A stretch of 64,000 nucleotides of DNA from Nitrospira japonica (GTDB taxonomy: Bacteria > Nitrospirota > Thermodesulfovibrionia > UBA6902): contig DYJL01000014.1 of NCBI GenBank assembly GCA_020723105.1, positions 1 to 64,000 on the forward strand. Direction: 5' to 3'. Positions within the stretch are counted from its first letter, which is position 1. Each line of letters begins with the position of its first letter. A program made the translations under genes and the position numbers. The notes beneath the pieces were generated by a model that was not told the origin of the DNA, did not search any database, and saw nothing but the letters and a program-made list of their open reading frames with translations. Shown piece after piece: positions 28,388 through 29,755 of the stretch.

Positions 28388-28561
28388 ATGAAGGAACTGA
28401 CAGTATATCAGGACGACAGGGGCGAGTGGATTGTTACAAGCGATAAGATGCCCGGTCTGATGGCAAGAGGCAAGACTCAGAAAGAAGCTGTAGAAAAAAT
28501 GAAGCAGGCCTTTTCTGTTTATTATCCCTGCGACAGCAGTAATTGCAGAGAATTAAAGTAA
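28388..28561 (+). CDS. HicB-like mini-protein (57 residues)
   Basis: This short protein (MKELTVYQDDRGEW, MPGLMARGKTQKEA, and a tail with two Cys) has the strand-strand-helix pattern of HicB/DUF1902 domains: an initial beta-hairpin, then PGLxAxGxTxxEA and a helix. HicB proteins are antitoxins of HicA toxins, but solitary copies are common and no HicA is adjacent. It lies 5 bp after the PilZ gene and probably depends on coupling, since no separate ribosome site is seen. Confidence 0.62.
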   Translation: MKELTVYQDDRGEWIVTSDKMPGLMARGKTQKEAVEKMKQAFSVYYPCDSSNCRELK

Positions 28562-28567
28562 GTCTTA

Positions 28568-29755
28568 TTAGTTGACTTTTCCCCTGTTGTCCATCCATCT
28601 GAGAACTATTAAGATGGTGATCAGGAGGGTCATTGTAGTTATTAAAGCACTTCCCATGCCGAACTCGTAAGGTAACACGTCAAACCTTTTATATAGCCAT
28701 GAATCCTGCAGAAGGGAGCTGATAGGCGCTCTTAAACCAACTGTAAGCATTGCTCCGAGTAATGCAAACCAGTGCCGTATATATCCTTCGGCCGACCGCC
28801 AAAGTATTCCGCTTACTCAGCCACCTGTAATAGTCATGCCAAATCCGAATATAATGCCGCCAATGAGGGAACGCAAACCTGTTTCAAATACGTATGGGGT
28901 TATTATTGGTTTTATTCCGGCCATCATAATAATAGTAAAACCGATAACACCCACTACCAGGCTGATAATAAGACTTTGCATCATGCGCGTAGTCCTGGTG
29001 AGAAAAATTTCCCGGAAGGCAGCGGCGAAACAAAATGCAGACCTCTGAAAGACTATACCGAAAAGGATGCCGGATACAAATGCGGCTGCAGGGAATTCTG
29101 TCCCGATTAGAATATCAATGGAAATAATAATCAATATAAGCAGGATTCCGGCTATGGCAATTTTGGGTTGTATATGTCTATAGTTTTTCTTAACAATATA
29201 GTTGATTGGTGCTGGTATTGTTTGACTGGATGCAGGGCTGAATAATTTTTCTGCCTGCCTGTCTATCTGCCACATCACGAATTTTCCACCAATGTAAGCG
29301 CCGGTTAATAACCCTGCCATCATAACAAAGCCGCTTAGGGATAACATCATAATGCTTGAATATAAGCCACCCAGAATACAGGCGCCGGCTAAAAAACTGC
29401 CGATTCCCATCAAGGCCCCGCCGATAAATCCCTGAATATAGCCGCCCGTTTCTTCTTTTTTCAGGCTGAACTGTTTTGCAAGTAGCGCTGACAGGAAAAC
29501 TCCGGCCATCAGGCCGATATACAGGATATGTTGCGGGAAATATCTTGAAGTCTGTAGAAAGTGTATTGGTGACTGCAGATTCATGGAAGCAGTGTTATAT
29601 GTCCATCTTCCCCAGTCAGCAATAACGGCAGTTGTTGTTGCTATAGGTCCTGAATATATGAACATTGCTGTATTCAGCAATGCCAGTATTATCCCGCCAA
29701 CCTCTGAGGGCCATTTTTCCTCAAAAATCTTTTTATAATACTTTGAGTTCATCAA
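28568..29755 (-). CDS. YeeE/YedE family sulfur/selenium-type transporter, probable selenoprotein (in-frame TGA)
   Basis: Reading through one TGA (28819-28817, codon 313) gives 395 residues with about ten membrane helices. The first half carries GSFLAGACILGG (Cys126). The second half has GMTITGG-TGA-VSGILWRSAEG, where relatives have Cys after GG. The frame stays open for 82 codons after the TGA and ends with a normal membrane helix and a basic tail. A SECIS-like hairpin follows (28786-28804). The family moves thiosulfate-like or selenium-linked compounds through Cys-lined paths. The alternative is a nonsense mutation; the intact downstream half and hairpin geometry make selenocysteine more likely. 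Confidence 0.78.
28786..28804 (-). promoter_or_regulatory. candidate bacterial SECIS element
   Basis: In the minus-strand mRNA, 12 nt after the UGA, CUUUGGC (28804-28798) pairs with GCCGAAG (28792-28786). The stem has seven pairs, one of them a U-G wobble, and a five-base GGUCG loop. The loop begins 19 nt after the UGA. E. coli fdhF has a comparable stem, a bulged U at the matching height and a GGUC loop about 18 nt after its UGA. SelB binding is inferred. Confidence 0.68.

Follow-up and report, generated by a model that had tools for sequence, protein, structure and literature searches.

A YeeE/YedE-family transporter with a predicted selenocysteine at a TsuA relay-cysteine position in a deep-subsurface bacterium of the Thermodesulfovibrionia

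The stretch of DNA analysed here (64,000 nucleotides, hereafter the window) comes from a deep-subsurface bacterium whose genome of 3.13 Mb is estimated to be 100% complete, and it carries a gene for a YeeE/YedE-family membrane transporter that is interrupted by a single in-frame TGA (Table 1). The residues around this codon read ...GMTITGG-U-VSGILWRSAEGY..., after which 82 family-like codons stay open up to a TAA stop at 28568-28570; an earlier note on this DNA had placed the one TGA exactly here with the same open frame behind it, and re-reading the coordinates gave the same picture. Since an ATG at 29752 adjoins a TTG at 29755, the TGA is codon 312 or 313 depending on the start, and the former count is used below. 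A mechanical list of open reading frames covers only the part of the gene before the TGA. The neighbours are groES-groEL, a rhomboid-like gene, tmRNA, a PilZ gene and a sensor kinase gene, the transporter standing alone between tmRNA/PilZ and the sensor kinase in an order kept in two relatives, and none of these neighbours is a sulfur gene. No gene for a TusA-family partner of the kind that adjoins TsuA is found in the 64-kb window, and a Sec-TusA partner within it was likewise considered and rejected. A short HicB-like frame (TVYQDDRGEWIVTSDKMPGLMARG...) lies on the forward strand between the PilZ gene and the transporter (28391-28561).

Table 1. Features of the window and of related loci
Feature	Position	Strand	Basis or remark
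YeeE/YedE-family (PF04143) membrane transporter gene	28568..29752	(-)	394 residues with TGA = Sec; read-through translation
In-frame TGA, predicted Sec312, aligned with Cys91 of S. thermophila TsuA	28817..28819	(-)	phmmer against 6leo; homologue codons
SECIS-like hairpin CUUUGGC-GGUCG-GCCGAAG	28786..28804	(-)	Loop 19 nt after TGA; predicted
Cys241, equivalent of TsuA Cys22, third relay cysteine	29030..29032	(-)	Alignment and codon reading
Cys125, equivalent of TsuA Cys293, first relay cysteine	29378..29380	(-)	Alignment; invariant in 31 homologues
Formate dehydrogenase alpha subunit, TGA in canonical CARV-U-HAPTVAGL site	L107:3053-5743		Upstream of C6 cluster, same genome
TusA-like, TGA at active-site Cys, NTM-U-PYP	L107:7859-8089 (G000:C6)		Directly after Sec-YeeE paralogue
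TusA-like, TGA at active-site Cys, NGT-U-IPP	L108:10628-10858 (G000:C88)		Directly after Sec-YeeE paralogue
DsrE-like with TGA, U-GGC	L107:8110-8463		C6 cluster, source genome
DsrE-like with TGA	L047:3889-4242, L048:11203-11556, L049:11359-11712, L050:8907-9257, L052:423-773		

The machinery for inserting selenocysteine, which the earlier note had proposed to look for, is present in the genome with all four of its components, namely a tRNA-Sec (74.5 bits, above the gathering score), SelB (343.6 bits, above the cut-off), SelA (623 bits) and SelD (333.8 bits), the selD gene itself containing one TGA. That TGA might be a general sense codon was ruled out because 10 of the 33 long frames in the window terminate with it.

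A search of 396 genomes of the phylum (Nitrospirota) with the window protein as query returned 11 genes including the query (43-100% identity), each with exactly one TGA, and the source genome has three such copies, on contigs C25 (the window), C6 and C88. Addition of the Thermodesulfovibrionia/Nitrospirae records of a named collection brought the total to 18 TGA genes from nine Thermodesulfovibrionia genomes, all of which have the TGA at this codon and nowhere else. As the earlier note had supposed, the codon is one at which the family has a conserved cysteine: remoter family members have TGC or TGT exactly there, while the close homologues, whose truncation at this point would have told against read-through, share the TGA. 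The closest Cys form, from a Dehalococcoidia genome (L053), is 36% identical; by maximum likelihood it is sister to a single clade (96/92 support) that takes in all 18 Sec forms, its long branch being a caveat to this placement. Such a topology fits one residue change in the Thermodesulfovibrionia lineage, in either direction, that would have been retained through gene duplication. The part after the TGA is evolving much like the part before it (dN 0.14-0.23, dS 0.6-1.3 in comparison with the four nearest orthologues), and dN/dS values of about 0.1-0.3 downstream of the TGA relative to close relatives indicate purifying selection. In two Sec-YeeE forms, from G162 and G328 (L021 and L022), the residue matching Cys22 is missing (QRASFGF) and DG-U-VVG stands in place of GG-U.

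The sequence 3' of the TGA bears out the hairpin described in the earlier note, with its 12-nt and 19-nt spacings: a 7-bp stem (28804-28798 paired with 28792-28786) encloses a GGUCG loop (28797-28793). Its candidacy as a SECIS element gains from comparison, since a hairpin with a GGUC loop, resembling that of E. coli fdhF, is kept in all 18 TGA homologues. Moreover, among the columns of the gene whose amino acid is invariant, the least variable fourfold site is that of the alanine codon at +9 from the TGA (GCC in 18/18 genes) and the least variable sixfold site that of the arginine codon at +7. Both codons lie inside the hairpin; the serine codon between them (+8) reads TCN throughout, its third position being free and placed in or at the loop. 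In the three C88-type genes, where Trp is replaced by Gly and CGG by AGG, a 6-bp hairpin with a GGUC loop still forms in a shifted register, and in the other 15 the base of the stem pairs CUU with GAA or CUC with GAG in all but one (14/15, the exception being G158). Many copies can be drawn as two 3-bp stems with a bulged U between them, the arrangement found in E. coli fdhF. In contrast, the Dehalococcoidia Cys gene specifies ILWRSAEGY as well, but with the codons CGT-AGT-GCG; it has no comparable hairpin, and its stability does not exceed that of synonymous shuffles (fraction 0.68). An Rfam scan of the locus gave chance matches only. Single TGA-containing sequences are modestly more stable than their synonymous recodings (11/18 at a fraction of 0.06 or less), and the case for this putative signal is therefore one of conservation, single-sequence stability being modest. 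The retention of TGA at one codon, the low dN/dS and the constrained hairpin codons argue together that the TGA is no chance event. Insertion of selenocysteine at the UGA of the window gene by SelB and tRNA-Sec is almost certain, about as certain as sequence permits.

An idea of what this residue might do came from aligning the window protein with TsuA (6leo) by phmmer, in which query residues 226-333 match TsuA 7-112 and residues 74-151 match TsuA 241-319, so that the two halves occur in the opposite order, as in a circular permutation. By position, U312 corresponds to Cys91, C241 to Cys22 and C125 to Cys293, and all three relay positions of TsuA are thus occupied, one of them by Sec in place of Cys. 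An AlphaFold model built from 31 homologues is of moderate quality (pLDDT 72.9; a first model from 11 rows, with pLDDT 49, was discarded), and its only good fold matches are TsuA structures, the top Foldseek hits being 8j4c, 6lep and 8k1r (probability 1.00, E 0.0009-0.012, TM about 0.5). In TsuA, Cys293, Cys91 and Cys22 are lined up toward Cys17 of the TusA-like partner YeeD (PMC11073785), Cys91 and Cys293 are indispensable (PMC11582611), Cys91 being needed to transport thiosulfate, and the PDB title of 6lep reads 'inactive mutant - C91A'. By the alignment of U312 with Cys91, together with this published cysteine path, Sec replaces a cysteine of the transport path. As for family membership, the protein passes PF04143 easily (159.4 bits, cut-off 27) and falls below the cut-offs of the narrower models, namely NF033796 for YedE/FdhT (149.1 against 350), TIGR04112 (30.1 against 200) and the TsuA models NF052577 (100.7 against 400) and NF041049 (89.4 against 645).

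Whether such a selenoprotein had been described was left undecided in the earlier note; in fact a YeeE/YedE selenoprotein with the motif GUxSG (WP_012471001.1) is tabulated in two reviews, of 2026 (PMC13188914) and 2022 (PMC9312934). Both tables cite studies of 2008 and 2016 for it, the accessible portions of whose main texts do not name it. DsrE-like selenoproteins are likewise already listed (PMC13188914), while TusA and SirA are not mentioned in the same 2026 review, and no report of either with selenocysteine was found in the literature searched, the coverage of which is incomplete. The window gene thus belongs to a known selenoprotein family, and the newer part, a proposed relay with several selenocysteines, lies outside the window in the paralogous operons.

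In one of these, the C6 locus (L107), Sec-FdhA and two ArsR-type regulators are followed by Sec-YeeE, TGA-containing TusA-like and DsrE genes, and then DsrF/TusC-like, DsrH/TusB-like, SQR-like flavoprotein and DsrE2-like genes, after which come genes for an RND transporter and for LolA-like and DUF1302-like proteins. The best model for the SQR-like flavoprotein is a type III SQR selenoprotein subtype, which it matches with 100.7 bits against a cut-off of 525. Much of this gene set is found again in six further loci, and the paralogous operons keep TusA, DsrE, DsrF, DsrH, the SQR-like flavoprotein and DsrE2 adjoining Sec-YeeE. The TusA-like protein of C88 passes PF01206 (43.3 bits, cut-off 28.6) and that of C6 does not (24.7). 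The C6-type gene has a 7-bp hairpin with a GGUC loop, the C88-type one being weaker. TGA-containing TusA genes occur in the source genome, in one more sample genome and in the DeMMO and SURF_45 loci, and TusA with TGA is a candidate new selenoprotein family. The DsrE-like genes have the TGA in the motif LRVYL-U-GGC or LKVDL-U-GGC, and lie together with DsrF, DsrH, SQR-like and Sec-YeeE genes in a conserved cluster. In the Dehalococcoidia locus YeeE and the TusA that follows it both have Cys, and the exchange between Cys and Sec therefore appears to have been a joint one in the two partners. The surroundings of the paralogues suggest that sulfur is relayed by carriers which, one after another, use selenols. 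For a membrane-to-cytoplasm relay in the Thermodesulfovibrionia running from Sec-YeeE through Sec-TusA and Sec-DsrE to DsrFH/DsrE2 and the SQR-like enzyme, with Sec-TusA as an undescribed family, we see about an even chance.

The explanation that we favour for the window gene, and consider probable as a whole, is that of a Sec-YeeE relaying sulfane sulfur with Sec at the position of TsuA Cys91. The full-length transporter would be made, with the hairpin just 3' of the UGA directing insertion by SelB and tRNA-Sec, and Sec would take the place of the second of the three cysteines lining the TsuA channel (Cys293 to Cys91 to Cys22), along which a thiosulfate-like ion is passed through the membrane to a carrier of the TusA family. 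The selenol may speed the relay step, or ease its reversal, for sulfane-sulfur species (thiosulfate or polysulfide/persulfide), and carriers of the TusA and DsrE families would then receive the cargo, for example the putative Sec-TusA and Sec-DsrE encoded beside the paralogues elsewhere in the genome. A sulfur species is the likely cargo, rather than selenium, since the conserved sulfur-relay neighbours of the paralogues point to sulfur; that the window copy adjoins no sulfur gene speaks against this reading.

The main rival, by virtue of the closest curated model being YedE/FdhT, is that the same selenoprotein imports a selenium compound as FdhT/YedE might, a selenoprotein thereby helping to feed selenoprotein synthesis. 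We regard it as unlikely. The match to NF033796 is full length with the same domain order, yet below the cut-off for that model. Also in its favour are the control of formate dehydrogenase by FdhT/FdhU in C. jejuni (PMC4178425) and the Sec-FdhA gene upstream of the C6 paralogue; FdhA, however, was identified beside this one copy only, and sulfur-relay genes are the conserved company of the paralogues. YedE co-occurs with SelD and has been proposed as a selenium transporter (PMC5322559), but selA, selB and selD adjoin none of the three copies in the source genome, and deletion of yedE in M. maripaludis was tied to no selenium species tested (PMC11097638).

The UGA could also act as a selenium-dependent switch, giving the full transporter when selenium is available and a non-functional or regulatory protein of 311 residues when it is not. 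Sec-UGA codons do terminate when selenium is short, a general property that singles out nothing in the window gene; there is no signal of a functional truncated product, truncation would cut the conserved repeat short by removing its second half, and we hold such a switch to be very improbable. A pseudogene, or a TGC or TGT miscalled as TGA, has nothing in its favour beyond the stop itself, and is as good as eliminated by the sharing of this TGA among 18 copies in nine genomes, with no other stops and with dN/dS well below 1 after it; the pseudogene reading was rejected on these grounds. Most known selenoproteins are redox enzymes. The sulfane-sulfur relay favoured here would place Sec at a substrate-relay site of a membrane transporter, and because the Cys counterpart has been solved structurally and tested by mutation, the merits of a selenol versus a thiol in sulfur transfer can be asked directly. 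The paralogous operons would contribute TusA, as a candidate new selenoprotein family, together with several relay proteins that switched to Sec jointly, and the Sec-YeeE, Sec-TusA and Sec-DsrE genes are probably missed or cut off in standard annotations.

Three known systems lend themselves to comparison. With YedE/FdhT (NF033796), the best-scoring NCBIfam model, the window protein shares domain order and a full-length alignment, but has Sec for Cys, and the surroundings of its paralogues are sulfur genes. With the TsuA (YeeE)-TsuB (YeeD) pair of Spirochaeta thermophila and E. coli it has in common the fold, the three relay positions and, in the paralogous loci, a TusA-family partner, while differing in the Sec at the place of Cys91, in the reversed order of its halves and in the lack of an adjacent partner for the window copy. 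The catalogued WP_012471001.1, which presumably comes from Desulfuromonadales, is of the same Pfam family and was compared by motif, the GG-U-V-S-G of the window protein conforming to GUxSG. Protein searches of a Desulfuromonadales sample and of the class returned no TGA forms; the relatives found, all free of stops, came from 57 of the 136 and 43 of the 271 genomes. Compared with the catalogued form, the C6- and C88-type copies have GUAAG or GUAVG and the G162 type GUVVG, some species have three paralogues per genome, and the TGA extends to the partner genes.
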